Below, piece by piece: positions 3,983 through 22,733 of a DNA stretch of 64,000 nucleotides (the first letter of the stretch is position 1; each line of letters starts with the position of its first letter). Source of the stretch: Syntrophomonadaceae bacterium (lineage in GTDB: Bacteria; Bacillota; Syntrophomonadia; Syntrophomonadales; DTU052); the NCBI GenBank assembly GCA_012728655.1, contig JAAYEQ010000025.1:1-64000 (forward strand). The letters run 5' to 3'. The notes under the pieces were generated by a model, which ran no database searches, was not told the origin of the DNA, and saw only the letters and a program-made list of their open reading frames with translations. The position numbers were made by a program, and so were the translations under genes.

Positions 3983-5445
3983 GTCACATCACAGTTTTCA
4001 CGGATTCCACAAAGGGCTTCTGCCAGTTCCTTGCGGTGCTGCAGGTTGATCAGGCGCGAGATCATAATCCTCTGAGCCTGTGGCGATCCGGCGCCATGCA
4101 TGGACTCGGTCAGGTAAGCAACTGCACCCGCTCCCAGGGTAAGGTTTTCAATGTATCGCAGCATCCGCTGACGATGCTCCGCAGGAATGTCGCTCCTGGC
4201 AGTGGTATACTTGGCTACCAGCGGACCGATTTCCGGGTGGTTGAAGTCCTGTTCCGAAGGCATGGTCACCATATAACCGCCGGCAATATCCTGAGCCAGT
4301 CGTGAGATCTCATAGGGAAAACGAGTAACGTTCTGCTTGCAGATGTTGGCCAGCAACAGGTCTATCAAATAGTTGCCTGCCGCTGTCTTGCGGCCTTCGG
4401 CTGAGCAGGCAATACCGCATGCATACAGGGTCTCATTCAGATGGCACATTTCAATAATTTTGTCCTTGATGTGGGAAGCTTTGGCGGCGCCGTTATACTC
4501 CGCAATCGCTTGAGCGGCTCCGATGAGGGTATCTCCGACACCCACCTTGCATCCGCCGTAGCTCTGGCGGTGGTAACCGGCAAAGCGCTCTACCAGCATG
4601 GTGGTAAAATCGGTTTCACCATCCATAAATACGCGTTCCCAAGGCACAAACACATCGTTGAATATGGTCATGACCTCCTGACCGCCAAAGTAGATGTTCC
4701 CGCGATCAATGGTTCCGGGTTCCATCTTTCTGGTATCACAGGACTGGCGACCATATACATAAATCATTCCGGGGGTGTCGACGGGTATGGCAAAGCATAC
4801 CGCCCAGTCTTTTTCGCTCTCCTTCAAGGTGTTGTTTGGCATAACCAGAATCTCATGCGAGTTTATCATGCCGGTCTGGTGGAGCTTGCATCCCCGCACC
4901 ACTATTCCGTTATGGCGTCTTTCCACTACCCGCAGGTAAGCATCGGGATCGGCCTGATCACCGGGTGATTTGCTCCGGTCTCCCCGAGCATCGGTCATGC
5001 ATCCGTCAACCGTTAAGTCATTGTCCTGGACATACTTCATATACTCCGTAAAACGCTCATGATATCGGGTTCCGTATTTGGCGTCTATCTCAAAAGTGGT
5101 GCTGAACACCGCATTAAAGGCATCCATGCCCACACACCGCTGAAAACAACACCCGGTTTTCTGCCCCAATAATCTTAGCATCTTAACCTTTTTTATCAGA
5201 TCGTCAGTGCTCTGGTGTAGATGGGTAAATCGGTTAATCTTCCTTCCGGTAAGACTTGAGGTCGCAGTCATCAAATCCTCGTACTCCGGATCCTGCGCCA
5301 GTTTATAAGTCATGGCCATGGCATTGATAGAAGGTCTTATCATCGGGTGATCCACATAATTCTTAACCAATTCCCCAAAAAGATAGAGCTTAATATCCAT
5401 TTTTCGCAGGTCGTCAATATATTCCTGGGGCGTTTTTAGGGTCAT
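3976..5445 (-). CDS. abfD: 4-hydroxybutyryl-CoA dehydratase / vinylacetyl-CoA delta-isomerase
   Basis: Dehydrates 4-hydroxybutyryl-CoA to crotonyl-CoA by a ketyl-radical mechanism using FAD and a [4Fe-4S] cluster; the enzyme is soluble and oxygen-sensitive. Start moved from 5463 to the ATG at 5445 (MTLKTPQEY), which sits six bases after GAGAGGTGG. The product is then 489 residues, matching the well-studied clostridial enzyme (about 490). The cluster ligands described for that enzyme can be placed: CFQRC near residues 100-104, and the His and Cys spaced by seven in YHRQSYGGCK, with the adjacent lysine. Catalytic glutamates fit PWERVF and YLTESMHG, and the active-site threonine fits HQTGMINSHE. 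This supports the true dehydratase rather than a 4-hydroxyphenylacetate monooxygenase relative. It is first gene of an operon with the CGGC protein and probably the thiolase. A sigma-54 promoter and an upstream dyad precede it, pointing to control by the activator at 7390. Confidence 0.94.
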   Translation of the reverse strand: MTLKTPQEYIDDLRKMDIKLYLFGELVKNYVDHPMIRPSINAMAMTYKLAQDPEYEDLMTATSSLTGRKINRFTHLHQSTDDLIKKVKMLRLLGQKTGCCFQRCVGMDAFNAVFSTTFEIDAKYGTRYHERFTEYMKYVQDNDLTVDGCMTDARGDRSKSPGDQADPDAYLRVVERRHNGIVVRGCKLHQTGMINSHEILVMPNNTLKESEKDWAVCFAIPVDTPGMIYVYGRQSCDTRKMEPGTIDRGNIYFGGQEVMTIFNDVFVPWERVFMDGETDFTTMLVERFAGYHRQSYGGCKVGVGDTLIGAAQAIAEYNGAAKASHIKDKIIEMCHLNETLYACGIACSAEGRKTAAGNYLIDLLLANICKQNVTRFPYEISRLAQDIAGGYMVTMPSEQDFNHPEIGPLVAKYTTARSDIPAEHRQRMLRYIENLTLGAGAVAYLTESMHGAGSPQAQRIMISRLINLQHRKELAEALCGIRENCDVTW

Positions 5446-5528
5446 ATTAAGCCACCTCTCCATAAAACAAGTTTCACAAACCTCAGCTAAACCGGGGAAA
5501 CAACATTACGGTTTTTTTGATTTATTAA

Positions 5529-5544
5529 TGCAATAATCATGCCA
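5529..5544 (-). promoter_or_regulatory. Sigma-54 (-24/-12) promoter of the abfD operon
   Basis: On the minus strand the sequence is TGGCATGATTATTGCA, with GG and GC separated by exactly ten bases. It matches the sigma-54 consensus TGGCAC-N5-TTGCA at all but one position. The predicted transcript start lies near 5518, leaving a leader of roughly 73 bases before the abfD ATG. Confidence 0.8.
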
Positions 5545-5604
5545 TGCTTGACTCTTGTTTAGAATAATCCCAAAAATAACACAATTAACAGTGGCTTCGA
5601 TCTC

Positions 5605-5620
5605 CGGACAATCTTGTATT
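5605..5620. promoter_or_regulatory. Weak second copy of the activator dyad
   Basis: CGGACA-N4-TGTATT keeps 8 of the 12 conserved positions of GATACA-N4-TGTATC. It lies 96 bases (about nine helical turns) from the strong site. It is supported only by spacing and partial match. Confidence 0.3.
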
Positions 5621-5700
5621 TGCAGGGCGGGAAAGATGGCTTCATCGAGGTGTAAAAACAGTCGTTTATAAACTGAGAGTACGGTTGAAGCAACTCAAAA

Positions 5701-5716
5701 GATACAAAATTGTATC
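5701..5716. promoter_or_regulatory. Upstream activator dyad GATACA-N4-TGTATC of the abfD operon
   Basis: A near-perfect palindrome, GATACAAAATTGTATC, lies about 190 bases upstream of the predicted sigma-54 start site, a usual distance for enhancer-binding protein sites. The same dyad recurs at 7317-7332 in front of the sigma-54 activator gene, so it is the likely binding site of that protein. Confidence 0.65.
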
Positions 5717-5778
5717 GTTCGGGAAAAATGTTTTCAGAAATTCAAGCGGAAACAGCGACTTTCTGCGGTTTTTACTAA

Positions 5779-5814
5779 TTCCGGCTGCGATTCATGATTG
5801 AATCATAGCCGGAA
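5779..5814. terminator. Hairpin between the chemoreceptor-like gene and the abfD promoter
   Basis: TTCCGGCT and AGCCGGAA arms, extended inward by GATTCA/TGAATC pairing, form a stable stem. The plus-strand 3' flank is GATTTTT. On the minus strand it lies about 105 bases past the stop of the chemoreceptor-like gene and probably separates it from the abfD unit. Confidence 0.55.
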
Positions 5815-5920
5815 GATTTTTAACAAGTCCGCAACCGTTATAGTTCAAGCGTCGCCATTCCCGTCTTTGAACGATATTATCTTCGGCTCAACCGAGCCTG
5901 TCCCGTTGTATACTATTATA

Positions 5921-7060
5921 CTATACTTCTCGTGCTACCCGATCCAGTTTTTCAGCCGTCTTGGTCAGTTCCTGAATGCTGGCTGCAATCTCCTCGGTTG
6001 CTGCCGCCTGCTCCTCGCTGGCGCGCAGAGTCTGTTCACTGACCTGGCGTGCGTGTTCCAACTGTGCCTTGATTTGATCGGTAAGCTGCTTTATTGATAC
6101 CACTGTGTCACGGGATTGGTCGGAGAGTTTGCGGATCTCTTCAGCTACCACGCCAAAACCACGCCCGGCATCGCCGGCGCGAGCTGCCTCAATAGCTGCG
6201 TTGAGCCCCAGCATCTTGGTTTCGGCTGCAATCTGGGTAACAAAACCAAGGACCTGTTCGATTCTTTCCGATATCTGATAGATCTCGGCAATGCTGTTAT
6301 TGAGGGTTCCCTCATTGGCCGCAATCTGTGAAGCTGAAGCAGCCAGTTGCTGTATCACTGCCGCAATCTCGTTTACATTTTTCTCCATCTTGTCCGACAT
6401 ATTGCGCAGGCGCTGTGCATTTCGCTTGGGTATGGTTATGCCGAAGCTTCCCACCACTTTGTCCTTCTCGTCCGGGTCAAAGAGCGGCTGCCCCATGCTT
6501 AGAAAGGGAATTCCATATTGCTTGGCATCCAACTCCAGGACGTTTGGCTTCCCGGTTCTAAGGATTTCCTGAGCGAACGGGTCCGGAGGATCGCCCACCT
6601 TATACATATCGGTACTGAATTTTGTCGACCCCTGCAGGCCCACATTCTTCTGGGTATCCGTTAGCCACACAAAAGCTCCTTCGGGAAACATCTCGGCAAT
6701 TACGGGCGCAAAGTCGGGAAAAGCGGGGAATATTGGATTCACCCGCGGCTGTACAACCCTGAAGGTTCCGACTACCTTGTCCCCCTCGAAAACAGGGGCT
6801 GTTGTCACCAATACCCGACCACCCTGGCCATCATCCAGTATCCTGGTGGTGAGCCGCTTGGTTTGGATCGTCTCCCACGCAGCCCCTCCTTCACTGAATC
6901 TTTTCCCCACCTCAAACGCCGGCATGTCAAACACGTCCGACGCCAGCTTCCAGGTGTAGACCTCAAGGTCGGTAGTACCGAAAATGGCACCTCCAGGAAT
7001 GAGATTGACCAGCATGGGCGCTATTTGCTTAAAATGCTCCACCGCGGCACTTGTAATCAA
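5921..7060 (-). CDS. Soluble methyl-accepting chemotaxis-type signalling protein
   Basis: 379 residues with no membrane segment. The C-terminal half is a chemoreceptor signalling domain. Its hairpin tip [29 protein letters not shown] (about residues 285-313) is the part that contacts CheA/CheW, flanked by coiled-coil heptads. The N-terminal 220 residues form a cytoplasmic sensor region with repeated motifs ([26 protein letters not shown]) that I do not recognise as a named domain. The start is TTG at 7060 with AAGGGGG seven bases upstream. It lies between abfD and the divergent sigma-54 activator. A metabolic-state sensor for taxis or for another output is plausible, but no che genes are in the window. 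Confidence 0.85.
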
Positions 7061-7300
7061 ATTGTTACCCCCTTACGTTGTACTTCAGGAACAAAAACCC
7101 GTCCAGATCTCAACATGCAACCACTGCTGCACCTGCTTCCAATGCCTTGTTGAATAATGTTTCCATAATTAACATCCATTTTTTCCAATACCGCAATTTT
7201 CTGCTTCCATTATATACAATAAAACAATTTTTAGGTAACAAAATATACAAAGGTTACCTCCATTATCCGACTGCCCATTACATAAAATCGGTTTCGGTGT

Positions 7301-7332
7301 TACAATAGTTGATAGTGATACATCTGTGTATC
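7301..7332 (+). promoter_or_regulatory. Promoter of the sigma-54 activator with an overlapping dyad operator
   Basis: A sigma-A type promoter TTACAT (7278-7283)-N17-TACAAT (7301-7306) puts the start near 7312. The dyad GATACA-TCTG-TGTATC at 7317-7332 lies just downstream of the start, a position that would block transcription if occupied. The same dyad is the putative activator site of abfD, so negative autoregulation is inferred. Confidence 0.6.
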
Positions 7333-7389
7333 ATAAAGTCTGATGAGCATAAACGCTACCGGTACGGTAACCTGAGGGAGGGCATCCGG

Positions 7390-9552
7390 ATGCAAAAAAC
7401 CTGTGTCATCGAAGACCCCTGGATATCAATAGTCAACGACCTCATACGTGACGGTACTGCGATAATTGTTAAAAGTTCATTAAAAGTGCGGGATTTCATG
7501 CGTCCAAATCCTTGGACGCTCACAGTCAATGATACCCTTCAGGACAGCCTGGATATCATCATTAATCGCAGAATTGACGGCGTTCCCATCCTGGATGATG
7601 AAGGCAACCTGGTGGGACTGGTCACCAAGACCCTGGTCTTGAGAGAACTGTTCAAAGGCCGTCCACTGGACTATCCCGTAAGAAAAATAATGAGAACCAA
7701 TCCGATTGTGACCGGTCCTGACGAGGACGTTTCCACCCTCATTACCGTCAGTGTCGGCAACCTGCCGGTGGTGGACAAGGGCAGAGTGGTGGGCATTGTG
7801 ACCCTGTCCGACACCATTCGTGCTTATTTCAGTTCGGTCCTGAAATTGAGAGAGGAACTCTACACCATAATAGATTCCATGCACAACGGTCTTATCTCCG
7901 TTAATGAAGAAGGCAATATCGTATTATTCAACACTGCCGCCGAAAACCTGTTTCAAATCCCGCGGGAGCAGGCGGTAGGTAAGCCGGTTATGTCGATCGT
8001 TCCTGAAAGCAGGTTGAATGAGGTTCTGATGACCGGAAAAAAGGAATCGGGCAAACTAACTTACAACGGCCGTGTTCTCATCTCCAACCGAACCCCTTTG
8101 ATCTCAAACAATAAGGTCATCGGCGCCGTAGCGGTTATGCAAGATATTTCCGAACTGGAAATGATATCGGAGGAATTGAGTATTACCAAACGGATGAAAG
8201 ATGAATTGGATGCCATTATCGACTCTTCATACGACGGTATATACGTTACCGATGGCGAGGGAAAAACGTTACGGGTCAATGAGGCCTACTCGCGGATTAC
8301 CGGGATACCCAGCGAAAAACTGATCGGCAGAAACATCAGCGACCTGGTAGCGGAAGGGATATTAAGCCAATCAGCCATCATGGAGGTTCTGGAGCGCAAG
8401 GAACGGGTGACCATATCTCAGGAAATGAATAACGGCTCCAGCGTGCTGATTACCGGCAATCCCATCTTTGATGATTCCGGCAACATCGTACGCGTCGTTG
8501 CCAATGCAAGAGATTTCACGGAACTTAATACTCTGCGGATGCAGCTTCAGCAAGCCGAGAACCTTTCGAAGCATTTTCAGGTGGAACTTAACAAGTACAA
8601 ACTCGGTGATGAGTACGTAATCCACAGCCAGAAGATGAAAGATCTGGTAGACCTCAGCATACGCCTGGGACAGGTTGATACCACCGTTCTTATTCAAGGA
8701 GAATCGGGGGTGGGCAAAGAGGTCATCGCCAAAACCATTCACCGTCACAGCCTGCGAAGCGACAAACCCCTGATCAGCATTAACTGTGCCGCCATACCGG
8801 AAAGCCTTTTGGAATCGGAACTGTTCGGTTATGTCCCCGGGGCCTTTACCGGAGCAAAAAAAGACGGCAAAGCAGGCATTTTCGAGATCGCTCATCAGGG
8901 CACCCTGTTTCTTGATGAGATCGGAGACCTGCCCTTCCACCTGCAGAGCAAACTCCTGCGGGTAATCCAGCAGCGGGAAATAACGCGCATCGGAAGCACG
9001 ACCCCGATTAAGATCGATGTCCGTCTGATTGCAGCCACCAACCGCGATTTATGGGAGATGGTTCTGCGCAAAGAGTTCAGACGAGACCTGTTTTACCGGT
9101 TAAACGTAGTCCCCCTTTATGTTCCTCCTCTCCGGGAAAGAAAAGAGGAAATTCCGTTTTTGGCCGCCTTCTACCTGAAGAAGTTCAATGACAAGTACGG
9201 ATTCAACAAGCGGCTGCATGAGAAAGCGGTTAAGGCTCTGATCAACTACGACTGGCCGGGTAACGTGAGAGAACTGGAAAACCTCATAGAGAGGCTGGTG
9301 GTAACCTGCGCCGGTGATGTAATTACCGATGTGGGACTGCCGGTGCCCGATCCCCAGGATCTCATTACCCTAAACCTGGATCCCAGCTCATCCTTAAAAG
9401 ACGCGGTCGAGGAATTGGAGTGCCGTCTGATACAGGAGGCCATAAACCGCTGTGGTTCCACCAGAAAGGCGGCCGCCGAACTGGGAGTCAGTCAGCCGAC
9501 CATTGTCCGCAAGGCTGCCAAATATGGCATAAAGCTGAGAGATGAGAAGTAA
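7390..9552 (+). CDS. Sigma-54-dependent transcriptional activator (CBS-PAS-PAS-AAA+-HTH)
   Basis: Enhancer-binding protein that remodels sigma-54 RNA polymerase by ATP hydrolysis. Domain order: a CBS pair (about 30-145), two PAS domains (about 150-265 and 275-385), and an AAA+ domain with Walker A GESGVGKE near 437, the sigma-54-contacting GAFTGA near 484, and the DEIGD Walker B. A Fis/TyrR-type helix-turn-helix ends the protein ([20 protein letters not shown]). CBS domains usually bind adenine nucleotides, PAS domains small ligands or redox cofactors, so the protein could read energy or CoA status. Start moved from the TTG at 7309 to the ATG at 7390 ([11 protein letters not shown]), which follows GAGGGAGGG. 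The longer version would translate through the dyad operator. The nearby sigma-54 promoter and shared dyad suggest abfD as its target. Confidence 0.94.
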
Positions 9553-9582
9553 GAGCCGTTGCCGGGCCACCCCCATTTTTAA

Positions 9583-9609
9583 GCCGGGCGTGTATAGGTC
9601 GCGCCCGGC
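9583..9609. terminator. Hairpin between convergent genes
   Basis: GCCGGGCG and CGCCCGGC form a perfect eight-base-pair stem with an 11-base loop between the sigma-54 activator (plus) and the alcohol dehydrogenase (minus). It probably serves both directions. Confidence 0.6.
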
Positions 9610-9648
9610 GTATTAATAACAATTAACGATTAACAACAGGATGATTCC

Positions 9649-10665
9649 TTAGGGTTTAACCATTATCTTTACCGCATCCCCCTTGGGATCATCGAGCCTT
9701 TCAAAGGCCTTTTGCAGATCCTCGAGACCTACAATATCATCGACAAACCTGTCTGTTTTCAGGACTTTACGTGCAATGTAATCGATGGACGTGTCAAACT
9801 CGTCAGGGGAATAGCCGTATGAACCTTTAATCATGATCTCCCGCATGTTTACTCTCATGGTGTAGATGGGAACCAGATCATAGTTCACTCCGACCAAAAC
9901 CACTGTTCCCCCGTAACCGGTCGCTCCGATAGCGGATTGAACCGCCGGAGCCGGTCCCGCACATTCAAAGGTCTTGTCGAACCCGCCATCGGTTCTTGTC
10001 AGGAGCTTCTTCTGGAGTTTGGGATCACCGGCATCGAACACCTCGTCGACATCCCCAAAAGCCAGTGCCTTCTCCCGGCGAACCGGATTAAGCTCCGACA
10101 GCGCTACATAAGCCGCCCCGGAGATTCGGGCCCAGGCCGCACACAACAGTCCGATGATTCCGGCACCTACGACCAGTACCCGGTCCCCCGGTTGTACATT
10201 CCCCAGGTGAACAGCCCGTAAAGCAACTGCCGCCGGTTCCACCATCGCCCCTTCTTCCATGGTCATCCCATCGGGAAGCTTTCGCACCATAAGCGGATTG
10301 GCCAGCATATACTCGGCATAGGCTCCAGGGGTACTAATCCCGGGGGCATCGTCCATGTATTTAACACAAGCAGCATACAGCTGTCGCTTACAGTACTTGC
10401 ATTCCATGCAGGGGTTGACCGGAAGTGCGGTTACCCGGTCGCCCACCTTAAACATATCCTTTGCCGGACCCGGGTCGGCTATGGTTCCGCCAAACTCGTG
10501 CCCCATGATCAGTCCCACCGGGACTCCATTATGCCACATATGGATGTCAGAACCGCAGATACCGGTTCTTTCAACCTTGATTAATAGTTTGGAGTCGGTC
10601 GCCTGCGGCGGTTCAGTTTCGATCAGCTTCAGTTGACATTTACCCTCGATGGCTACAGCCTTCAT
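9649..10665 (-). CDS. Zinc-dependent medium-chain alcohol/polyol dehydrogenase
   Basis: 338 residues, typical of the threonine/sorbitol dehydrogenase branch. It oxidises a secondary alcohol with NAD(P). Catalytic zinc ligands fit CGSDIHMWHNG and GHEFGG. The structural-zinc set CMECKYCKRQLYAAC (four cysteines) is complete, and the Rossmann fold shows VVGAGIIGL. It is 46 bases downstream of the SDR gene on the same strand, so the two oxidoreductases probably form an operon. The substrate cannot be read; a hydroxy acid, diol or sugar alcohol linked to the neighbouring CoA pathway are options. Confidence 0.9.
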   Translation of the reverse strand: MKAVAIEGKCQLKLIETEPPQATDSKLLIKVERTGICGSDIHMWHNGVPVGLIMGHEFGGTIADPGPAKDMFKVGDRVTALPVNPCMECKYCKRQLYAACVKYMDDAPGISTPGAYAEYMLANPLMVRKLPDGMTMEEGAMVEPAAVALRAVHLGNVQPGDRVLVVGAGIIGLLCAAWARISGAAYVALSELNPVRREKALAFGDVDEVFDAGDPKLQKKLLTRTDGGFDKTFECAGPAPAVQSAIGATGYGGTVVLVGVNYDLVPIYTMRVNMREIMIKGSYGYSPDEFDTSIDYIARKVLKTDRFVDDIVGLEDLQKAFERLDDPKGDAVKIMVKP

Positions 10666-10710
10666 ATGAACAGCCTCCTATCTGCCGGTATTCGATGAGC
10701 AGCTCAGGTA

Positions 10711-11496
10711 CTACGCTATAACGGCGTGCATCCCGCCATCGATGGGTATGGAATGACCGGTAATATGGTCGGAAGCTTTGGAGCAAAGGAAAACTATTGC
10801 TCCCTTCATATCATCCGGACCCCCTACCTTGCGCAGTGGAGTCTTATCATAGAAAACCTGTTCGCCGCCAAGGTTTTCCCAGTGCCGCTCAGTCATATGG
10901 GTTGGGAACGGACCCGGAAGGATAGCATTAACATAGATGTTGTAACGACCCCACTTGACCGCCAGATCCTTGGTCAGGTTTATAACCGCAGCTTTACTGG
11001 CATTGTAAGCAACCGTATCCTGTTCCTCGGGGAAAGTCCCGCCCAAACCGGCTATGGAAGCGATATTGACTATCTTGCCGTAACCGATTTCTTTCATGCT
11101 GCGAGCACACAGCATGCTCAGGTGGAACAATCCAATTACGTTGACCTCAAAAACCCAGCGGAATCTGTCCATGGGGAAGTTCATGGAATCGGCGCCCCAA
11201 GTGACCCCGGCATTGTTAACCAGGATATCCACCTTGCCGAACTCCTTCAAGGTAAGATCTACCAGGTTTTCGATCTCCTCGCCCTTGGATACGTCACAGC
11301 GGGCTGGAATAGCCTTGATACCGTACTTAACCAACTCATTGGCGAGGGCTTCACACCGCTCCACCTTACGGGCGGCAACAACCACATTGGCGCCCGCTTC
11401 GGCTAAGGCGTGACACATCTGATTGCCAAGACCGACAGAGCCGCCGGTAACAATGGCAGTTTTCCCGGACAAATCAAACAATTCCTTCAGGTTCAC
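10711..11496 (-). CDS. Short-chain dehydrogenase/reductase (3-oxoacyl-ACP reductase-like)
   Basis: A classical NAD(P)-dependent SDR: TGGSVGLG cofactor loop, NNAG, and the YNASK catalytic Tyr/Lys. The track starts at ATG 11502, but that codon is only one base from AAGGAGG. The GTG two codons later (11496) has a seven-base spacing and gives 261 residues, so I prefer it. It probably forms an operon with the downstream zinc dehydrogenase. Both would interconvert alcohol and ketone or aldehyde; whether they act in sequence on one substrate is inference. Confidence 0.9.
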   Translation of the reverse strand: MNLKELFDLSGKTAIVTGGSVGLGNQMCHALAEAGANVVVAARKVERCEALANELVKYGIKAIPARCDVSKGEEIENLVDLTLKEFGKVDILVNNAGVTWGADSMNFPMDRFRWVFEVNVIGLFHLSMLCARSMKEIGYGKIVNIASIAGLGGTFPEEQDTVAYNASKAAVINLTKDLAVKWGRYNIYVNAILPGPFPTHMTERHWENLGGEQVFYDKTPLRKVGGPDDMKGAIVFLCSKASDHITGHSIPIDGGMHAVIA

Positions 11497-11502
11497 AAAC
11501 AT

Positions 11503-11867
11503 ACCTCCTTAAAACAGCTTCAATCTGTATCGGCGAAATTTGGTGCCCCACAATTAGACGTCTTAATATGTGGCTGACCGTGCCAAAATGGCATGTCCCC
11601 TGGCACTCAAAACTGTTTTAATTATAAGATTTCCGCGGGTTCAAAAGCAACCAAGCGCGTCATTTCTATGCAATCCCGGGAAAAATGTACCCGGGGAAAA
11701 CCTACGGTTTCACCGGGAAACACAACCCGGTATCCAGGGACAAGAACCCTGAAATACAGGGCTTGAACTGTCCTGGGCGGCCTTTCCAAGTCCGTCAAAC
11801 TAAACTATAATATTGAGGAGTTTAAACACATAAGCTCTTAACAGCGGGTGCTTCAAGGAGGATTGCC
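11503..11867. promoter_or_regulatory. Divergent intergenic region with TGGCA dyad, GC-rich repeats and a -10 element
   Basis: Between the SDR (minus) and the GT-GH130 gene (plus). It contains TGCCA-AAA-TGGCA near 11594, with a wider GTGCCA/TGGCAC pair around it. There is a run of CCCGGG-like blocks (11670-11730), then a nested stem-loop (11734-11776; CCAGGGACA with TGTCCTGG outside, CCCTG with CAGGG inside). TATAAT at 11806-11811 would serve the plus-strand gene, but its -35 is poor. A single TGTATC half-site lies near 11526. Confidence 0.4.
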
Positions 11868-14800
11868 ATGGGTAATGAAAGCTTCAGCAGCTTTGAAAAG
11901 CGCTTCAGCGAGGCCGTCCGTGAGCTAATCTCTCTCCTTGGGGGATTTGCCCACGTTGACACGGTAATCGGTATTCCATTTTACAACGAAAAGGCCACAC
12001 TGCTCGAACTGTTGCAGCTTTTGTCCGGCAACCCGGATAACCTGCCATCCCCCAACACCATGATCGCCTGTATTGGAGACCCGGCCGGCCGCGATATTGC
12101 GGAAGCCATTAAAGGATTAAACCTGCCTATTCCGCATTTTGAATACGTATTGGCGCCGGGGATCAACGGCCGGGGTGCCAGCATAAGAGCCCTGATTGAG
12201 ATCGCCAATTACCTGGAAGCAGATTTGATAGTACTGGCTGCCGACCTCAGGCGGGAACATGGTCGGGGATTTCGCCCGGATTGGGCCAAAAGGTTGGCGC
12301 AGCCTATTCAAAAAGACTATGATCTGGCTCTGGGGTGTTTTCAGCGGCATCATCTGGAGGACCCGGTAGGCAAGTTATTTACCGGACCGCTGCTCGAGGT
12401 GTTTTACGGTTGCCGGGTTACCGATCCCACCAGCGGCATTTACGCGATTAGCCACGACCTCTTGGAAAACTACTGCCAGGATATCAAACTGTGGACCGAA
12501 ATTACCAGAGGCTACGGCATAGACCCCTGGCTCATAACCAGAGCCCTGCGATGGAATAAGGCCGTCTGCGAGGTAAAGCTTGAAAGCAAACTGGCACGGC
12601 CTTCCCCGGAGAAGGTGAATCTTGTTTTCAAGGAAAACGCCTTATCACTTTTTGAGTGCATAACCCGGGACGATAAGTACTGGTCGAACCGTCCTCAAAT
12701 CCTGAAGCATCTGGATGTTTTCGGCCCGCCTTTCGTTTCTGACGTCCCTGTTAATCCGGCTTTTTCGTTCACTGACCTGGTCATGTCCTTCAAAAGCGGC
12801 TGCAATCAATACGGTAACCTGTTGGATTCCCTGCTCCCTACGGACATTGCCGAACACTTGAAAGACGAAGTTCAGTTTTATGCCAGCCGCTTTACCTTTG
12901 GCCCGCATCTGTGGGCGGCCGTGGTCAACAGTTTCCTGCTGGCGTATGCTTTTAAAAAAGAAATTCCGGTCAACGACCTTCTAATCAGCCTGACATCCCT
13001 CTTTAACGGGCGCATTGCCGGTTTTCTGGCCGAAACGACATCAAGCGCGCCCACAGCACCGGACAACCTCCCGTTTGATCAATCCTCTTTACCGTCACCG
13101 GGTGCGGTCGAGGCGGCCAAAGAAACGCAAAGAGAGGCGTTCTTTATGCTGAGCGAGGGGTTGTCCGAGGAGTGGAGGCAGGCTGCCCACGATACCCGGC
13201 CGGTCATTGTTCCGGCGCATTATATGGAATTCATTCCCGGGATTCCCATTGTACTTCCCAAAACCCTGGTCGGTCCAGGCAATGCTGCGATCTCCACCGA
13301 GGAGGTATTTAACCGGCTGCAAAACCGGTATCAAGAACGTTTCAACAAGTTTGTCCATGAAGGATTGAACGTGCCCGTCGATGCGGATTCAAGCGCACTG
13401 GTTGCCGGTGTTGCCGGCTTTATGGCCGACCTGGAACGCGTATTGGAAGAAATGCTCCCCGGTGATCTCTACACCGAAGAAGGGATCGGACAGTTTCTAG
13501 GAGGCATCTTCAGCCTCTTTTCATTCCCCCGGGTGTTCGCGGTCAACAATGATCTCCTGCGGGAGATGCTGCTTAAGTTCCCCCCGTCGAACCTGATCAT
13601 CCCCCGGGGTTATCATGACGTTCAGGAACTGGTTGACAAGATGGACCTGAGAGACGCCGTGAGCCTGGCCAGCCTGGCGGAAAACCAGCTATTCATCGAA
13701 CAGGCCCAGGAGTGGCTTCTCGATAACCTGCGCCCCGAAAACATGGAAGAAGTTGAGCTTAAACCGCTGATCCTGGGCAGTCAGGACATGCACGGCTCGT
13801 ATCAGCTGGTCGCCACCTCCAACTTCAACATACTGGTTGGCAGGATAGCAGCCAGTCCGCTCGGTAAAGGAGTAGGGGGTCAGTATCCCCGGCTCCGTTA
13901 TTGCCTGTCGGTAGTTCGCCAGGCGGCAATCTCTGCCAACTACTCGCGTTTATGGCGGATTTATGCCCGCGAACGCAGGAATCTGGGAGAAAAGATCGGC
14001 AACTCCCTGGTAGGCTGGTACCGGGCTGAGACCTTTGCGGTCAACAATATCATGGAGAATACCAATCACCGACTGCTGGTCGGGTTTTTCGAGGCGCTGA
14101 TCGATAAGTTAAAGGCTTCCGGTCAGGTCTCCGCCGCCAAAACATTGGATCTGATGGTACAATCCTACGGGCTCAGCCAGATCCTCGACGACGGTACCTT
14201 CCTCCCCTGTTCCGCCTGGACCTGGGCCAGCTACAGCTACAAGGGCGGGCAAGGGTTGCCGACGCCTCTGTCCAGCCATGTGGAGGAGAAGTGGTTTAAC
14301 CATGAGTTGCTGGAAGAGATCTTCTCCTCCCTGGGTTACGATACTGCGGTGGTCGATGAACAAGCCATTCAACTGGTGGGCGAAGGTCGTTCCAATGAAG
14401 ATCTCCTGACCGCGGTATTGGGAGCGGAGGCCGAGAATGTGGTTGCAGTATCCCAGGACACCTATCCGTTCCCCCCGGCCAAGAGCCTGGTTCGCTACCC
14501 GGGGAATCCGATATTATCCCCCATCAAGGAGCATTTCTGGGAATCGCGTTATGTTTTGAACGCCGCATCCCTGCGCATTAAGGACCGGGTTTACATTCTT
14601 TACCGAGCGTACGGAGACGACGAAATATCGCGTATAGGTCTGGCGATAACCGACGGTTATCGGGTCCTGGAGCGGCTGCCCTACCCCGTATTCACCCCGC
14701 TGGGTCCCAAGGAGAAAAAGGGGGTCGAAGATCCTCGGGTCGTGGTAATCGACGGTTACATCTATATGATGTACACGGCTTACGATGGGGTTATCGCTCA

Positions 14801-15455
14801 GGTATCAGCCGCCGCCATCTCCCTTGAGGATTTCCTCAACCGCAGGTTCGACCGGTGGGAACGGAAAGGCCTGGCCTTTGAAGACGTATGGGATAAGGAT
14901 GCGATCCTCTTTCCGGAGAAGATCAAGGGACGCTATGTCATATATCATCGAATAGAACCCGGTATCTGGGTGTCATACCTGGATGAACTCAAGTTCCCGG
15001 CGCCCCGGGGAAGACATTCCATTATCATGGGTCCCCGTTCCGGGCGCATGTGGGACTCGGTCAAGATAGGAGCCGGAACCCAGCCCCTGAAAACAGACTT
15101 TGGATGGCTCATGATTTATCACGGCGTGGATAGGGATCGGGTATATCGCTTGGGAGTCATGCTGGTTGACGCTCGTGACCCGGAACGCCTTCTCTACCGT
15201 TCCCCCAATCCCGTGCTCGCGCCCGAAACGGAATGTGAAATCGGCATTCCCGGCCAGGCCTGGGTATGCAACGTAGTCTTCACCTGCGGAGCGGTCCCGG
15301 CTGAAGATAAAGAACGACTATACGAAGATGATGAGCTCCTGGTGTACTACGGAGCCGCCGACTCCCATCTCTGCGTGGCTACCTGCAAGGTGGGGGACCT
15401 GCTCCCCGAAGAAATCAGACGCAAATACCGGGGAGCGGTTTATGAAAGCGAATAA
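11868..15455 (+). CDS. Fused glycosyltransferase and GH130-type mannoside phosphorylase/hydrolase
   Basis: 1195 residues in one uninterrupted frame, with an AAGGAGG ribosome-binding site. Residues 1-about 290 resemble GT2/GT81 transferases such as mannosylglycerate or glucosylphosphoglycerate synthases: VIGIPFYNE, GRGASIRALIEIA, LAADLRRE, DPTSGIYAIS, GYGIDPWL. Residues 300-860 are largely helical and not recognised. Residues about 870-1190 have the five-bladed propeller signature of GH130: YPGNPILSP, NAASLRI, ILYRAYGDD, GVEDPRVVV, MMYTAYDG. GH130 enzymes phosphorolyse or hydrolyse beta-mannosides. Fusion of a transferase with a phosphorylase in one chain suggests that one protein both makes and recycles a mannoside. 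It converges, with a ten-base gap, on a five-gene mannose operon. The product could be a storage mannan, a compatible solute or an envelope glycan. Confidence 0.85.
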   Translation: MGNESFSSFEKRFSEAVRELISLLGGFAHVDTVIGIPFYNEKATLLELLQLLSGNPDNLPSPNTMIACIGDPAGRDIAEAIKGLNLPIPHFEYVLAPGINGRGASIRALIEIANYLEADLIVLAADLRREHGRGFRPDWAKRLAQPIQKDYDLALGCFQRHHLEDPVGKLFTGPLLEVFYGCRVTDPTSGIYAISHDLLENYCQDIKLWTEITRGYGIDPWLITRALRWNKAVCEVKLESKLARPSPEKVNLVFKENALSLFECITRDDKYWSNRPQILKHLDVFGPPFVSDVPVNPAFSFTDLVMSFKSGCNQYGNLLDSLLPTDIAEHLKDEVQFYASRFTFGPHLWAAVVNSFLLAYAFKKEIPVNDLLISLTSLFNGRIAGFLAETTSSAPTAPDNLPFDQSSLPSPGAVEAAKETQREAFFMLSEGLSEEWRQAAHDTRPVIVPAHYMEFIPGIPIVLPKTLVGPGNAAISTEEVFNRLQNRYQERFNKFVHEGLNVPVDADSSALVAGVAGFMADLERVLEEMLPGDLYTEEGIGQFLGGIFSLFSFPRVFAVNNDLLREMLLKFPPSNLIIPRGYHDVQELVDKMDLRDAVSLASLAENQLFIEQAQEWLLDNLRPENMEEVELKPLILGSQDMHGSYQLVATSNFNILVGRIAASPLGKGVGGQYPRLRYCLSVVRQAAISANYSRLWRIYARERRNLGEKIGNSLVGWYRAETFAVNNIMENTNHRLLVGFFEALIDKLKASGQVSAAKTLDLMVQSYGLSQILDDGTFLPCSAWTWASYSYKGGQGLPTPLSSHVEEKWFNHELLEEIFSSLGYDTAVVDEQAIQLVGEGRSNEDLLTAVLGAEAENVVAVSQDTYPFPPAKSLVRYPGNPILSPIKEHFWESRYVLNAASLRIKDRVYILYRAYGDDEISRIGLAITDGYRVLERLPYPVFTPLGPKEKKGVEDPRVVVIDGYIYMMYTAYDGVIAQVSAAAISLEDFLNRRFDRWERKGLAFEDVWDKDAILFPEKIKGRYVIYHRIEPGIWVSYLDELKFPAPRGRHSIIMGPRSGRMWDSVKIGAGTQPLKTDFGWLMIYHGVDRDRVYRLGVMLVDARDPERLLYRSPNPVLAPETECEIGIPGQAWVCNVVFTCGAVPAEDKERLYEDDELLVYYGAADSHLCVATCKVGDLLPEEIRRKYRGAVYESE

Positions 15456-15465: not shown

Positions 15466-16461
15466 TTAGGAATGCAGCAATTGCTCGGCCAACAGCATGG
15501 TGACCAAGGCTTCGGCTCCCTGGTTGGGGTTCAATCCGTCGGGGGTTAACCCGTCATGGCAGCCCCCGGTTTCCGAATTGATCAGGGGCAAATCGTGGAT
15601 GTTTTTCCCGAGATACCACTGCCAGATCATCTCCATCATGGTTTGAAAGTCCTTTTGCCCCGTCACCATAAAAGCCTCGCGACAGGCCAGTATCATGGAG
15701 CCGGCTTCCACCGGCTGCTGGTCAAAAAGCGGTATCTTTTTCCCCTTTTCCCACCATCCTCGGTTCCCTACGGGGGCAAAATACCCCTTCGCCAGCAGGC
15801 TGTCTCCCAGAAACAGCAGCGAGTCCCGTGCTGTATCCTGTACTTTCCGGTCAAGCTTGATGCGGCAATAGGAGAAAAGGGCGTGGGGCAGTATGGCATT
15901 GCAGTAAGTCATACGCTCCTCAAACCACCTCCACCCAGGCGAATTATATAATCGGTAGAGGCGGGTCAACTGCTCGACACAGCGCTGGATTATGCCGGAT
16001 ACACGTTGTTCAGCCTCCGGCATTTCACGAGCGAGGACCGTACAACCGATCAAGACGTAAGCATTGCTGCGGGGAAATTCCAGGGCCTCAATAAACGACA
16101 GGGCATCGGTGGCCATTTCCCGGCAGGCTGCCGATACCTCCGGCAAGTCCGAGACCGCACCAAAACAAGAGGCCATAAATGCCCGGCCCTGGCTGTCCTC
16201 CGAATCCAGGTCGGTAACAAATCCCCGGTTAGGAAGCCACCAGTTGCGCCATCCCTCCCCTCGACGCCACGCCTTCCGAAGCGCCTCGCAGTAAAGGTGG
16301 GCATATTCTTCACGCTGAGAGCCCTCCATGTTCAGAGCCACCAGCAAGGCTCGAGCGGTGTCATCAGTCGTACACCCGCTGTTAATGTCGGGTTCGCCGT
16401 GGGGCGCAAACTGGATTATACCGTAGTCACACGTCAGGCGTGCCAGATGACTGTAGTTCAT
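15466..16461 (-). CDS. Alpha/alpha-barrel protein associated with mannosyltransferases
   Basis: 331 residues, soluble, no signal peptide. HLARLTCDYGIIQFA, GCTTDDTARALL and DSEDSQGRAFMA match a domain I know from glycosyltransferase and GH130 neighbourhoods in other bacteria, sometimes fused to GT4 enzymes. The repeated helical pairs fit an alpha/alpha toroid like glycoside hydrolases. Its start overlaps the GT4 stop by four bases, so the pair is translationally coupled. It is the last gene of the mannose operon. Catalytic activity is unproven; it may trim or hold the growing glycan. Confidence 0.75.
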   Translation of the reverse strand: MNYSHLARLTCDYGIIQFAPHGEPDINSGCTTDDTARALLVALNMEGSQREEYAHLYCEALRKAWRRGEGWRNWWLPNRGFVTDLDSEDSQGRAFMASCFGAVSDLPEVSAACREMATDALSFIEALEFPRSNAYVLIGCTVLAREMPEAEQRVSGIIQRCVEQLTRLYRLYNSPGWRWFEERMTYCNAILPHALFSYCRIKLDRKVQDTARDSLLFLGDSLLAKGYFAPVGNRGWWEKGKKIPLFDQQPVEAGSMILACREAFMVTGQKDFQTMMEMIWQWYLGKNIHDLPLINSETGGCHDGLTPDGLNPNQGAEALVTMLLAEQLLHS

Positions 16462-17633
16462 GCTTGTCCCTTTCCTCCCCGAACACGTTTCAGCCCATAA
16501 TGCATTATCGCCTCATTGGCCACCTGGCTATAATAGCCGGCAACACTGTCCCAGGTCAAAGTCTTCCCATACTCCCAGGCTTTCTCTTCCAAAGCGGCCT
16601 GGAGCTTGGGATCCCCCAGTACAGCATCCAGAAGCTCGGCCAGGGCCTCAGGTGATGCATCCCTGGCTACCAAGCCCCTCCCCTGATCGAGAAGCTCGCG
16701 TGCGTGTTCATAAGGGGTGGAGACTGTTGCCCTCCCACAACCAACGGCAAAGGAAAGGGTGCCGGAAACAGCCTGATCAAGGTTGGGATAGGGGCTCAGA
16801 TACACATCGGTCATGTAAAGACAGTCCCCCAGTTCCTCCATATCCAGGAAGCGGTTAATGAACACAACATTCTTTTCCATCCCCAGTTCGGAAACCAGCC
16901 GCGTAACCTCTTCCCGATACCTGTCCCCCTCCTGTTTAAGGAGATTGGGGTGAGTACTGCCCGCAATAATATACACACAGTCAGGATACTTGTCCACCAC
17001 CTGACTAATAGCCCTGATCCCTATTTCCAGGCCCTTCCCGGGCCCGATCAGACCGAAGGTGGTAATTATGCGTCGTCCCTGGTATCCCAACTGCTGCTTT
17101 AAGACCTCCCGGTCTTTGGCTTGAAACTGAGGAACGCCGTGGGGAATAACATGTACTTTCTGGGGCGACAGGTTGTATACCGGTCCCAGCAAGATGTCCC
17201 GGGCCCGTTTGGTCATGCATACCACTGCGGTGGCATAACCGGCCAGTCGATTAAATACTTCCCGACAATGGGCTGATGGTCGAGGAAGTACAGTGTGAGC
17301 AACAAGCAGAATGGGCTTTTGAAGTCGGGCAGCAAAATCGAGGATGTATTCGCCGTCCTCCCCCCCATAGATGCCAAATTCATGCTGAATTATAACTATA
17401 TCGATATCACGCGACTTGTTGATCCAACCGGCACACCCTGTGTAATCGGAACGCCTCTCCTTACTCAACCGGTAGACCACCTCGTAAGGATAAAGGAACT
17501 TGGAGCCGCTGACCGACGCAATATTTACGTCTTCACCCCGGGAACAAAGACTATCCCTCAAATCTTTGGAGAACGTTGCAATCCCGCACTTTTCTGGCAC
17601 ATAGGTACTAACCATCAAGTAGCGATTCATCAT
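16458..17633 (-). CDS. Family 4 (GT-B) glycosyltransferase
   Basis: 391 residues. The N-terminus YVPEKCGIATFSKDL and the C-terminal donor site (FGLIGPGKGLEIGIRAI, YLSPYPNLDQAVSGTLSFAVGCGRATVSTPY, ALAELLDAVL) are those of retaining nucleotide-sugar transferases. GDP-mannose is the likely donor, because the three genes that make it lie just upstream in the same orientation. It is soluble with no membrane span. It precedes and overlaps the alpha/alpha-barrel gene. Acceptor unknown. Confidence 0.88.
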   Translation of the reverse strand: MMNRYLMVSTYVPEKCGIATFSKDLRDSLCSRGEDVNIASVSGSKFLYPYEVVYRLSKERRSDYTGCAGWINKSRDIDIVIIQHEFGIYGGEDGEYILDFAARLQKPILLVAHTVLPRPSAHCREVFNRLAGYATAVVCMTKRARDILLGPVYNLSPQKVHVIPHGVPQFQAKDREVLKQQLGYQGRRIITTFGLIGPGKGLEIGIRAISQVVDKYPDCVYIIAGSTHPNLLKQEGDRYREEVTRLVSELGMEKNVVFINRFLDMEELGDCLYMTDVYLSPYPNLDQAVSGTLSFAVGCGRATVSTPYEHARELLDQGRGLVARDASPEALAELLDAVLGDPKLQAALEEKAWEYGKTLTWDSVAGYYSQVANEAIMHYGLKRVRGGKGQA

Positions 17634-17798: not shown

Positions 17799-19169
17799 TT
17801 ATACTTTTATCTCAAGACCCAGGCCGTTTAGAAAACTGCACAACTCATCCTCAATTCGTTTCAGCCCTTCTTTGGTCCGGCTTTCATAACGCACGATCAG
17901 TTCCGGGCCGGTGTTGGAAGCCCTAACCAGACCCCATCCATCCGGAAACAGTATGCGGGCGCCATCAACATCGATGACCTCGTATTCTTTCCGAAATCTC
18001 TCCCGTACCTTTTCCACCACCTGGAACTTCTCGGTATCCGAGCTTTTGACCCTGATTTCCGGTGTGGTCCAGTACCGGGGAACATCCGCCAGGAGTTCGC
18101 TCATACTCCGGTCGGTGTTGGAAAGTATGCGCAGCAATCGGGCTGCGGCATATAAGGCATCGTCATAGCCGTAGTATTCGTCGGCAAAGAACATGTGCCC
18201 CGACATCTCCCCGGTAAAAATGGCGCCTATCTCTTTCATTTTCGCTTTGATCAGCGAGTGACCGGTCTTATACAGCAGGGGACGCCCTCCGAGCTTGACG
18301 ATTTCATCAATCAAGGCCTGTGAGCATTTCACCTCGACAATGCAGTCGATGCCGGGATGACGGGGCAGGATTTCCCGCCAGTAGAGGATCATCAGCAGAT
18401 CCCCCCAAATTATGCGGCCATCCTCAGCCACCACTCCCAGACGGTCGCCGTCACCGTCCAGGCCAATGCCCAGATCGGCCCTTTCGCTTTTCACTACCCT
18501 TATCAGGTCCTGGCAGTTCTCCACTTTGACCGGATCGGGATGGTGGTTGGGGAAATCGGGGTCCGATTCACAATACAGTTCAACCACCTCACACCCCAGT
18601 TCTCGAAACAGGCGCGGGGCAAAGAAGGAAGCGGTCCCGTTGCCGCAGTCAACAACGAGTTTTAAACGGCGGGGTCCCAAACTTATTCTCCGTTTAATTT
18701 CGTTGATGTAGTCCTCGGTGATATCCATATCGGTTACCGTGCCTTTGGGCGACCGGGAAATGAACACCCCATCCCGGGCCAGGCGGTATAACCTCTGAAT
18801 ATCGTCGCCGTATATGGTGTTCTCCCCGAGCAGGACCTTGAACCCATTGTACTCCCCGGGATTATGGCTGGCGGTGATCATAAGTCCGGCCGGGATCTCC
18901 AGATGGCGGGCCGCAAAGTAAAACATCGGGCTCACCACCACCCCCAGGTCGATCACCTGACAGCCGGAATCGGTAAGAGCCTCCACCACCACCTCCCGCA
19001 GATGAGGCGATGATTTCCGGTTGTCCCTCCCCAGGACCACCTTGTTCAACCCCTGCTCCCCAGCCATGGTGGCAAATGCCCGCGCAATTCTGCGAACGGT
19101 ATCATCATCCAACTCCTGGGGCACAAGCCCCCGTATATCATACTGCCGGAAGATGTTCCTGCTAATCAT
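17799..19169 (-). CDS. Phosphomannomutase/phosphoglucomutase
   Basis: Interconverts hexose-6-phosphate and hexose-1-phosphate. Key sites: FRQYDIRG, the phosphoserine loop TASHNPGEYNGFK, the metal site DGDGDRLG, sugar-recognition GEMSGHMFF, and phosphate-binding RASNTGPELIVRYE. Start moved from 19202 to the ATG at 19169, seven bases after AAGGGAGG, giving 456 residues, normal for the bacterial PMM/PGM family. It lies between the isomerase and the GT4 gene and supplies mannose-1-phosphate. Confidence 0.93.
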   Translation of the reverse strand: MISRNIFRQYDIRGLVPQELDDDTVRRIARAFATMAGEQGLNKVVLGRDNRKSSPHLREVVVEALTDSGCQVIDLGVVVSPMFYFAARHLEIPAGLMITASHNPGEYNGFKVLLGENTIYGDDIQRLYRLARDGVFISRSPKGTVTDMDITEDYINEIKRRISLGPRRLKLVVDCGNGTASFFAPRLFRELGCEVVELYCESDPDFPNHHPDPVKVENCQDLIRVVKSERADLGIGLDGDGDRLGVVAEDGRIIWGDLLMILYWREILPRHPGIDCIVEVKCSQALIDEIVKLGGRPLLYKTGHSLIKAKMKEIGAIFTGEMSGHMFFADEYYGYDDALYAAARLLRILSNTDRSMSELLADVPRYWTTPEIRVKSSDTEKFQVVEKVRERFRKEYEVIDVDGARILFPDGWGLVRASNTGPELIVRYESRTKEGLKRIEDELCSFLNGLGLEIKV

Positions 19170-19217
19170 GGGCCTTCCTCCCTTAATCCACTTGGACTGC
19201 ATTCACAACTTTCTCTG

Positions 19218-20258
19218 TTAGCCGTCTTGCAATCGTTTCTTTAGTGCTTCGATCAGGTTGACCGGAACCGGATCGACGCCATAAATGGCAGCCAGGTACG
19301 TACTTACAAAATCCCCGGTATAAATCAGGCTGAACAGTTGAGCCATCCTGGACCTGCCCCGGGCTTTAACCGTTAAAAACTTCGTGATTCTATCGTTCAG
19401 GATTTCACGGGTTATATCCATCCGGCGGCCGATCCGCGGGTGCTCGTTCCCTCCGCGCAGGATAATCACCGCGATTCTTTTGGTCAGCATTTCCGGACCT
19501 TCCAGGCCGGTAAACTCATTGTGATTCAACTCGGGAAAACAGTTGTAATAAGCCGGGGCCTTGGCATTCTCGTTGATCTGGCCCTTCCAGCGCATGGCCG
19601 CCACCTCCAAATCAGATCCGGCGGCCCAGATCACCGGGATGCAATCCTTTAGCTCCAATGCCAGTTCAAAAGCAGAATTTGATCCATCGGGATCATCCGC
19701 ACAGAGCTCCTCCCTTATTTCCTTCAATACGGCTGCCGTCTCCCGGATCTCATCCCTGATGCCGTCCGCCAGCCCGGCCATTTCCGCCATCAGGGCCAGG
19801 GGCGTAAAAAGATACCCCAGGGCGGCTCGGGGCGGCAGCCCCGCCGGAATAGTAATGAGAGGAATCCCGGCCTTTTCAGCCAGGGAACCCAAATGGCCTC
19901 CGGTGGTAACGGCTATTATCCGAGCACCTTTCGCTCTCGCATCCTCGAACGCGCTGATGGTCTCTTCAGTGTTGCCGGAATAGCTTACCGCCAGTACCAA
20001 TGAATCTCGGCCTACAAATCCCGGCAGGCGGTAATCGCGGCTGACTAATACCGGAACCGACTTCCGGGTGCTGAGACAGCACCGGAGCACGTCCCCTCCG
20101 ATGGCCGATCCTCCCATACCGGCAACCACCACGTTGGATATACCACCGGCTATAGTAATTCGGTATTCCTGCTGCAGACAGTATTCCAGTTGGTCAGGCA
20201 GACCATGGATATATTCAAGCATCTGTTTGACACCTTTAGCATGAACTCCGCTTATCAC
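19218..20258 (-). CDS. Bifunctional phosphoglucose/phosphomannose isomerase
   Basis: 346 residues with a SIS fold (GMGGSAIGGDVL, VSYSGNTEETI) and the C-terminal isomerase extension ending near GDFVSTYLAAIYGVDPVPV. This family connects glucose-6-P, fructose-6-P and mannose-6-P. GTG start with AAGGGATGA upstream. It lies between the guanylyltransferase (28 bases) and the mutase (48 bases), forming the entry step of the GDP-mannose route. Confidence 0.92.
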   Translation of the reverse strand: MISGVHAKGVKQMLEYIHGLPDQLEYCLQQEYRITIAGGISNVVVAGMGGSAIGGDVLRCCLSTRKSVPVLVSRDYRLPGFVGRDSLVLAVSYSGNTEETISAFEDARAKGARIIAVTTGGHLGSLAEKAGIPLITIPAGLPPRAALGYLFTPLALMAEMAGLADGIRDEIRETAAVLKEIREELCADDPDGSNSAFELALELKDCIPVIWAAGSDLEVAAMRWKGQINENAKAPAYYNCFPELNHNEFTGLEGPEMLTKRIAVIILRGGNEHPRIGRRMDITREILNDRITKFLTVKARGRSRMAQLFSLIYTGDFVSTYLAAIYGVDPVPVNLIEALKKRLQDG

Positions 20259-20285: not shown

Positions 20286-21362
20286 TTATATGAAAGCATG
20301 GTAGCCGGTCCGTTTCAGCTCCTCCACCACTTTTTTAATATCCTGGGCCCGGTCCCGGTGACACACCAGAAGGCAGTCATCGGTGTTCACAACTATCAGG
20401 TCCTCAACTCCCAGGGCGGCCACCACTTGCTCAGGCGAGTAAATCAAGCTGTTGCGGGTGTCGAGGAATACACCTCCTCGGCTTTGATGCACATTGCCGT
20501 TCTCATCCGCCGCCTGGTAATGTTGCCAGGAGGTCCAGGACCCCACATCATCCCAGTCGAATCGCGCCGGTATCACCAGCACCTGGCTGCATTTCTCCAA
20601 AATGCCGTAATCTACAGATATTCGGGGAAATCTCTGGTATTCCCTCATCAATACCTCCGATTGCTCCGGAGTCCCCAGGCTGTTCCCTATGGCCTCCAAA
20701 CCCCGGGCAACGTTCGGCAGAAATCGGAGAAAAAGACTCCGGATAAGATCCACCCTCCAGATAAACATACCGCTGTTCCAAAGATAGTTGCCTTCCTCAA
20801 TATATTTCTTCGCACGCTCAATATCGGGCTTCTCTTTGAATTCCAGAACGCTGTGGACCGGTATGCCTGCATATTCTCCCCTGACCTCGCCCATACGAAT
20901 GTACCCATAACCGGTAGCCGGTTCCGATGGCCGGATCCCTATGGTGACCAGCCAATCCCCGCCGGCAGCCGCATCAAAGGCGGCGGCCAGGCACTCATGG
21001 AATCCCCGGACATTGGTTATGTAATGGTCGGCCGGGAGGATCAGCATCGTTCCTCCGGGGTCCCGGCGATAAATGTACTCGGCCGCTAGGCCGACAGCCG
21101 GGGCGGTATCCCGACCAAAGGGTTCACAGATGATATTCGAAAGTGGAAGTTGTGTAAGCTGAGACACAACCTGCTGATGATACTGCTCTCCAGTCACCAC
21201 ATAGATATGATCCGGTTCTATCAGCCCTGCGACTCGTGACACCGTCTGCTGCAGCATGGTCTGCTCTCCGAAGAGACGCAAAAACTGCTTGGGGTTGTCC
21301 TGCCGAGACAAAGGCCAAAACCGTTCACCGGTGCCGCCGGCCAGAATCACAGCATAAACCAC
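20286..21362 (-). CDS. Mannose-1-phosphate guanylyltransferase
   Basis: Makes GDP-mannose from mannose-1-phosphate and GTP. The nucleotidyltransferase signature LAGGTGERFWPLS opens the protein; FVEKP-like FKEKPDIERA, NSGMFIWR and the C-terminal DDVGSW motif follow. Start moved from 21389 to the GTG at 21362, which follows GAGGTGAT by six bases and begins right at the conserved strand (VYAVILAGG). It gives 358 residues. First gene of the mannose operon. Confidence 0.93.
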   Translation of the reverse strand: MVYAVILAGGTGERFWPLSRQDNPKQFLRLFGEQTMLQQTVSRVAGLIEPDHIYVVTGEQYHQQVVSQLTQLPLSNIICEPFGRDTAPAVGLAAEYIYRRDPGGTMLILPADHYITNVRGFHECLAAAFDAAAGGDWLVTIGIRPSEPATGYGYIRMGEVRGEYAGIPVHSVLEFKEKPDIERAKKYIEEGNYLWNSGMFIWRVDLIRSLFLRFLPNVARGLEAIGNSLGTPEQSEVLMREYQRFPRISVDYGILEKCSQVLVIPARFDWDDVGSWTSWQHYQAADENGNVHQSRGGVFLDTRNSLIYSPEQVVAALGVEDLIVVNTDDCLLVCHRDRAQDIKKVVEELKRTGYHAFI

Positions 21363-21659
21363 GAATATCACCTCTCTTCTGTTGTGCACTTTGCTGGGGC
21401 CAATCAGGTATTATGCAGGGGTGCTAATAAGAATTATAAACACCCAAGTTATAACAGGCAAACCAGCGGTACCAACCTGGACGTTGAACGGCGAACCATC
21501 GAGGTCTAGAATCTGCAGCCCACAGGCGAAAGGAGTCGCTACCGGCCTCAAGATACTTTAAGCATTGCCTCGTCTTATTATTCCTGGCAATTCCCAATAT
21601 CATGCGCTTATCTGATTGCCGGTACATCCACGCTTGAACTTAAGAAAGTAGGCTCCAAA
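21363..21659. other. Intergenic stretch without a supported gene
   Basis: About 300 bases upstream of the guanylyltransferase. The 67-codon minus-strand ORF here has no ribosome-binding site or recognisable motif. The promoter of the mannose operon should be here, but no strong -35/-10 stands out. Confidence 0.4.
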
Positions 21660-22236: not shown

Positions 22237-22326
22237 TGGTGCCCGGGGCCGGACTCGAACCGGCACGGCCGTCACCGGCCGACGGATTTTAAGTCCGTTG
22301 CGTCTGCCTGTTCCGCCACCCGGGCA
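22237..22326 (-). tRNA. tRNA-Leu (anticodon TAA)
   Basis: 90-base class II tRNA with a long variable arm. The anticodon loop reads CTTAAAA. T-loop GGTTCGAGTCC and an encoded CCA end are present. Last of five tRNAs in the operon. Confidence 0.95.
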
Positions 22327-22349
22327 TGTTTTATTTGTGAATATAAAAA

Positions 22350-22633: not shown

Positions 22634-22641
22634 ATCCTATA

Positions 22642-22717
<76 letters not shown>

Positions 22718-22733
22718 CTGTTAATCAAAAATA

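Follow-up and report, generated by a model that had tools for sequence, protein, structure and literature searches.

A three-part bacterial protein joining a mannosylglycerate-synthase-like domain, an orphan helical domain and a GH130 phosphorylase-type domain

The closest described relatives of the protein reported here are Teth514_1788 and Teth514_1789 of Thermoanaerobacter X-514, stand-alone GH130 enzymes of ~300 residues, the latter a proven beta-1,2-mannobiose phosphorylase. A similar concept is found in the mannogen enzymes of Leishmania, the GT108 MTPs, where beta-1,2-mannan synthesis and phosphorolysis reside on one polypeptide. On the transferase side, the nearest systems are the mannosylglycerate synthase of Rhodothermus marinus (MGS, GT78) and the stand-alone GpgS (GT81). 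In a stretch of 64,000 nucleotides from a Syntrophomonadaceae bacterium (hereafter the window), a single gene shares features with all of these. With the Thermoanaerobacter enzymes it has in common the GH130 fold, identical active-site residues and a module of GT4, guanylyltransferase and AA6 genes, the latter encoding an (alpha/alpha)6 glycosidase-like protein, but its GH130 domain sits behind ~870 extra residues and is ~36-39% identical to theirs. While one domain does both jobs in the GT108 MTPs, the fusion offers two separate candidate domains, with synthesis only predicted. With MGS it shares a GT-A fold, four pocket positions (E41, R102, D126 and D219) and probably part of the helical portion, to an extent judged from alignment length; MGS, however, has a DAD motif and a metal His, whereas the fusion has AxD, no equivalent His by motif, and two further domains. 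To GpgS it is a weaker match than to MGS, and its DxD is degenerate. Since Thermoanaerobacter-type genomes pair the module with stand-alone GH130s, we regard the fusion as a variant, of single origin, of a phosphorylase module that is already known. It is apparently undescribed: in agreement with the first-pass annotation, which knew of no such precedent, none was found in the open literature searched.

The fusion gene and its parts are as follows.

11855..11861, + strand: Shine-Dalgarno sequence AAGGAGG, 6 nt before the ATG of the fusion gene (read from the sequence)
11868..15455, + strand: fusion gene, 1195 aa plus stop, ATG at 11868, uninterrupted frame
11940..12737, + strand: N-terminal GT-A domain, mannosylglycerate-synthase-like, residues ~25-290 (Foldseek to MGS; weak GpgS and GT2 matches)
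12237..12245, + strand: A124-A125-D126, equivalent of the DxD motif (MGS D100-A-D102), by motif mapping (PMC2581804)
12522..12524, + strand: D219 in GYGID, equivalent of MGS D192 and GpgS E232, by motif mapping (PMC2581804)
12738..14486, + strand: middle domain, mostly helical, orphan, residues 291-873 (searches without match; AF2)
14487..15452, + strand: C-terminal GH130 phosphorylase domain, residues 874-1195 (Pfam, PDB sequence and fold)
14727..14738, + strand: E954-D955-P-R957, putative acid Asp and +1 Glu of GH130 (family alignment)
14895..14897, + strand: K1010, equivalent of BT3780 Lys199 (beta-1,2 determinant), invariant (alignment to 7fip; PMC4599007)
14946..14951, + strand: H1027-R1028, basic residues kept as in phosphorylases (alignment)

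This is the sole GH130 gene of its genome. The initial description of a single 1195-residue protein is borne out by the intact frame with its Shine-Dalgarno sequence, by full-length homologues at 34-89% identity and by purifying selection on all three parts (dN/dS 0.03-0.15). Given these homologues and this selection, the gene is neither an assembly artefact, a possibility raised at the outset, nor a chance frame. An assembly chimera or a chance joining of adjacent frames is exceedingly improbable, as the full-length copies come from dozens of independent genomes and form one clade. Structure prediction, which had been proposed as a check, yields a confident AF2 model (mean pLDDT 87.5, pTM 0.81) that includes the helical middle and an MGS-like N-terminal fold. 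The pairing of a transferase-like fold with a GH130 phosphorylase-type domain on one chain is thus upheld by the Foldseek match to MGS and the Pfam match to Glyco_hydro_130.

The C-terminal domain is the best understood of the three. Residues 891-1178 match Glyco_hydro_130 (PF04041) with an E value of 4.4e-46, and the domain folds in the model as a five-bladed beta-propeller, with Teth514_1788 (9fj8/9gph) as top Foldseek match (TMt 0.88, 36% identity) and Teth514_1789 (7fip) also among the top matches. The first annotation was exposed to the loss of GH130 catalytic residues on alignment; none is missing. All 11 active-site positions examined (N898, R913, E954, D955, R957, K1010, H1027, R1028, K1066, H1085 and D1165) are invariant across 56 homologues, the most distant at 34% overall identity, and a Teth514_1789 ortholog at another locus (L121) carries identical letters at each. 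Among them, D955, N898 and D1165, kept in 56/56, are equivalent to Asp131, Asn73 and Asp344 of BF0772, with roles taken from PMC4264767; in Teth514_1789 the mannose site is formed by Asn28, Asp98 and Asp287 (PMC4264767). Lys199 of BT3780 determines beta-1,2 specificity, and GH130 hydrolases have two Glu residues in place of the basic phosphate site (PMC4599007). R1028, K1066 and H1085 have the letters of the Teth514_1789 type, phosphate contacts being assigned by alignment, and the retained basic residues speak against a hydrolase. Because these residue rules are established for the family, the domain is by those rules of phosphorylase type and probably specific for beta-1,2-mannosides, as the annotation of a GH130-like phosphorylase of beta-1,2-mannoside type had it. 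GT108 enzymes have the five-bladed fold of GH130 and combine transferase and phosphorylase activity on beta-1,2-mannan (PMC8950772), so one may ask whether the GH130 domain is itself a dual transferase/phosphorylase, as in the Leishmania MTPs, with the other domains assisting. We judge this very unlikely, since both sequence and fold group the domain with bacterial GH130 phosphorylases; the GT108 structure 6Q50 does not appear among the matches listed in the sequence and fold searches.

The N-terminal domain had been called a GT2/GT81-like transferase. The transferase-like fold stands, but the family placement shifts: the best fold match is Rhodothermus MGS (Foldseek E 9e-11 to 4e-10, TMt 0.69-0.73 over ~435 columns), GpgS comes second with the AF2 model (E 2e-6, TMt 0.6), and plain GT2 is weak (PF00535, E 0.005, 17.2 bits, below the cut-off of 23.3). 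As modelled, the domain is of GT-A fold, closest to MGS and then to GpgS. Identity to MGS is ~14% in the fold alignment, and a search of PDB sequences using the N-domain profile gives no MGS match. The GpgS model PRK13915 (NCBIfam) is matched weakly by 5/20 members (best 3.4e-6), the window copy giving no match, and the PxSGxY and GYG[ID/VE] motifs are shared with GpgS. From the ~435-column length of the MGS alignment we infer that the first helices of the middle domain may correspond to the MGS-type C-terminal helical extension.

The residues that bind nucleotide, ion pair, metal and sugar in MGS and GpgS have been assigned (PMC2581804). Motif alignment places E41 (ribose), R102 (Lys76), D126 (metal Asp102) and D219 (Asp192) at their equivalents, with Ala at position 124 (MGS Asp100) and Ala243 in place of the metal His217 of MGS. 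Family-wide, Glu, Ala or Ser occupies position 124, and 42/56 homologues keep D126; its losses concentrate in a second-paralogue clade (L018-L020, L030-L046), plus L027, L077 and L080. In this clade, where the metal-binding Asp is mostly gone, the DxD reads SAN, SAK and similar, and the GH130 residues remain invariant. In the PxSG loop the residue is Ser, the one found in GpgS and argued to disfavour a mannose donor (PMC2581804). Since the DxD motif reads AxD in this protein and has decayed in some paralogues, the transferase activity of the N-domain is uncertain. The domain might instead be a pseudo-transferase whose binding of a nucleotide sugar or of the acceptor serves for regulation or substrate positioning, leaving catalysis to GH130 only. 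This seems to us possible, if doubtful: the metal and sugar residues of the transferase erode repeatedly while those of GH130 never vary, and the first Asp of the DxD is Ala in the window clade; yet that clade keeps D126, R102, E41 and D219, many lineages have EAD together with D219, and the N-domain is under purifying selection (dN/dS ~0.1).

Between these two lies the middle domain (residues ~291-873, ~580 residues), mostly helical in the AF2 model (pLDDT 86.1). The first-pass annotation had left it unexplained, and it has no match in Pfam, among the sequences and folds of the PDB, or among the BFVD viral folds. The best PDB hit, a DUF885 protein, has an E value of 0.034 but a TM of 0.14, and was rejected as kin; profile comparison with the AA6 neighbour was likewise negative. 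Strongly conserved motifs are HNIFENxHHR, DGTFLPCSAWSWASYSYKGG and PTPLSxHVEERWFNHDFLE, and E454, N712, E730-N731, R735, W784, E806 and W809 are among the residues that the domain conserves. We consider this large conserved family with no recognised relative to be the most interesting point of the fusion.

The middle domain occurs in 55/399 sampled genomes of the phylum (37/270 genera), always inside the three-part fusion wherever the gene is complete. The ORFs bearing it span ~1100-1275 aa, apart from some shorter; four shorter frames checked as candidates for a free-standing middle domain all reach contig ends. Among 61 relatives, 56 match the fusion. Most of these matches are full-length, often as a pair of paralogues, and a few are partial or GH130-only; same-genus copies are 76-89% identical. 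A scan of a public genome collection returned close relatives only, labelled Syntrophothermus, Pelotomaculum and Syntrophomonadaceae; the plasmids, phages and viral contigs searched contain no fusion. In the tree, the GH130 domains of the fusions group in a single clade (support 1.00), and the fusion thus most likely arose once. The Pelotomaculum locus L023 (4702-17861) holds a solo GH130, a GT4+AA6 fusion, two differing three-part fusions and another GT4.

Downstream of the fusion gene, the window contains the following genes.

15466..16461, - strand: AA6, 331-aa (alpha/alpha)6 glycosidase-like protein, convergent with the fusion gene and 10 bp from it (weak GH127, GH88 and C5-epimerase matches in family members; PDB 7tem, E 1.5e-9)
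16458..17633, - strand: GT4 glycosyltransferase, 4-bp overlap with AA6
17799..19202, - strand: phosphomannomutase/phosphoglucomutase (PMM)
19218..20258, - strand: bifunctional phosphoglucose/phosphomannose isomerase
20286..21389, - strand: mannose-1-phosphate guanylyltransferase (ManC type)

The window copy of AA6 has no Pfam match. Across 53 loci, some with cut flanks, GT4/AA6 homologues lie near the fusion in 39, PMM in 21 and ManC in 18. GT4, AA6 and the fusion are co-directional, with gaps of ~10 bp or overlaps, in about ten loci, and at other loci GT4 and AA6 are joined into one polypeptide. The AA6 family, present in 102/399 genomes of the phylum, is tied to GH130 and GT4: it is found in 50/55 fusion-bearing genomes versus 52/344 others (Fisher p 4e-29, shared ancestry ignored), and 50/52 of these fusion-free genomes have a GH130 gene. 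In ten fusion-free loci, picked for AA6 and GH130 matches on one contig, a stand-alone GH130 has GT4 and AA6 no more than a few genes away in 10/10. One locus (L121) has clear orthologs of Teth514_1789 and Teth514_1788 in the same module as an AA6 relative (11457-12506); AA6 is therefore probably the 'hypothetical' Teth514_1785. An uncharacterised (alpha/alpha)6 family travelling with the fusion is thereby brought to light.

The same GT4, AA6 and guanylyltransferase neighbours fit the published proposal for Teth514_1788/1789 (PMC4264767), i.e., a purely catabolic salvage in which imported or recycled beta-mannosides pass through mannose-1-phosphate to GDP-mannose. For the fusion we find this reading rather improbable, as no transporter or secreted mannanase is recognised among the window-module genes examined, the ABC importer belonging to the Thermoanaerobacter cluster, and the transferase-like domain would lack an obvious purpose. 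With moderate confidence, we put forward that the fusion is an intracellular mannoside-turnover enzyme, combining GH130 phosphorolysis with a probable MGS-like transfer from GDP-mannose. Reversible phosphorolysis by the GH130 domain would release alpha-mannose-1-phosphate from a beta-mannoside whose linkage is most likely beta-1,2, and the ManC encoded nearby would convert this product into GDP-mannose. Building of the glycan via GDP-mannose would fall to ManC and GT4, perhaps joined by the MGS-like domain, the N-domain probably starting or extending the same glycoside from GDP-mannose or a related nucleotide sugar. The helical middle could serve as a scaffold, or could handle substrate as an additional domain, holding both ends together; the adjacent GT4 and AA6 may act on the same glycan, with AA6 trimming it. 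In this scheme, which would couple the building and phosphorolysis steps, we infer the linkage, the direction, the transferase activity, the role of the middle domain and the identity of the glycan. Coupled building and recycling of a mannoside is plausible because of the GDP-mannose gene neighbourhood. Candidates for the glycan are a reserve of oligomannosides, a mannosylated solute and a primer; the genome encodes a glycogen-synthase family protein, and thus a mannose-based reserve is not its sole option. A bolder version, which we hold to be unlikely, would have the fusion both synthesise and phosphorolyse, on its own, a bacterial beta-mannoside reserve not yet described, with the ~580-residue middle a new fold that contributes a function of its own (e.g., branching, binding of the acceptor or a third step of catalysis).

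The fusion links the Teth514_1788/1789-type phosphorylase, known from biochemistry yet physiologically unexplained, to a conserved module and to a transferase-like partner on the same chain, and which beta-1,2-mannoside these bacteria make or store therefore becomes a directly testable question. The activated-mannose genes around it hint at a little-studied intracellular mannose-recycling pathway.

Several further arrangements deserve mention. The Ilyobacter polytropus plasmid pILYOP02 (L111), typed as conjugative, carries at 2922-8648 a GT4, two GH130 genes and a GT4+AA6 fusion, without the three-part fusion. One of its GH130s and the solo GH130 of L023 share 71% identity, suggesting horizontal transfer. 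At two other loci (L127, 1569-4703; L130, 10399-14493), frames 1044 and 1364 aa long match both ManC and PMM and lie beside GT4+AA6 fusions. Upstream of the fusion gene, window positions 7309-11502 encode a CBS-PAS-sigma-54 activator followed by genes for zinc alcohol dehydrogenase and SDR enzymes, an arrangement that adjoins the fusion across the genus (L021, L022 and L025). On the other side of the module, a 101-aa frame at 21663-21965 matches the NucS C-terminal nuclease domain, apparently as a fragment, and adjoins a tRNA cluster at 22237-22809.
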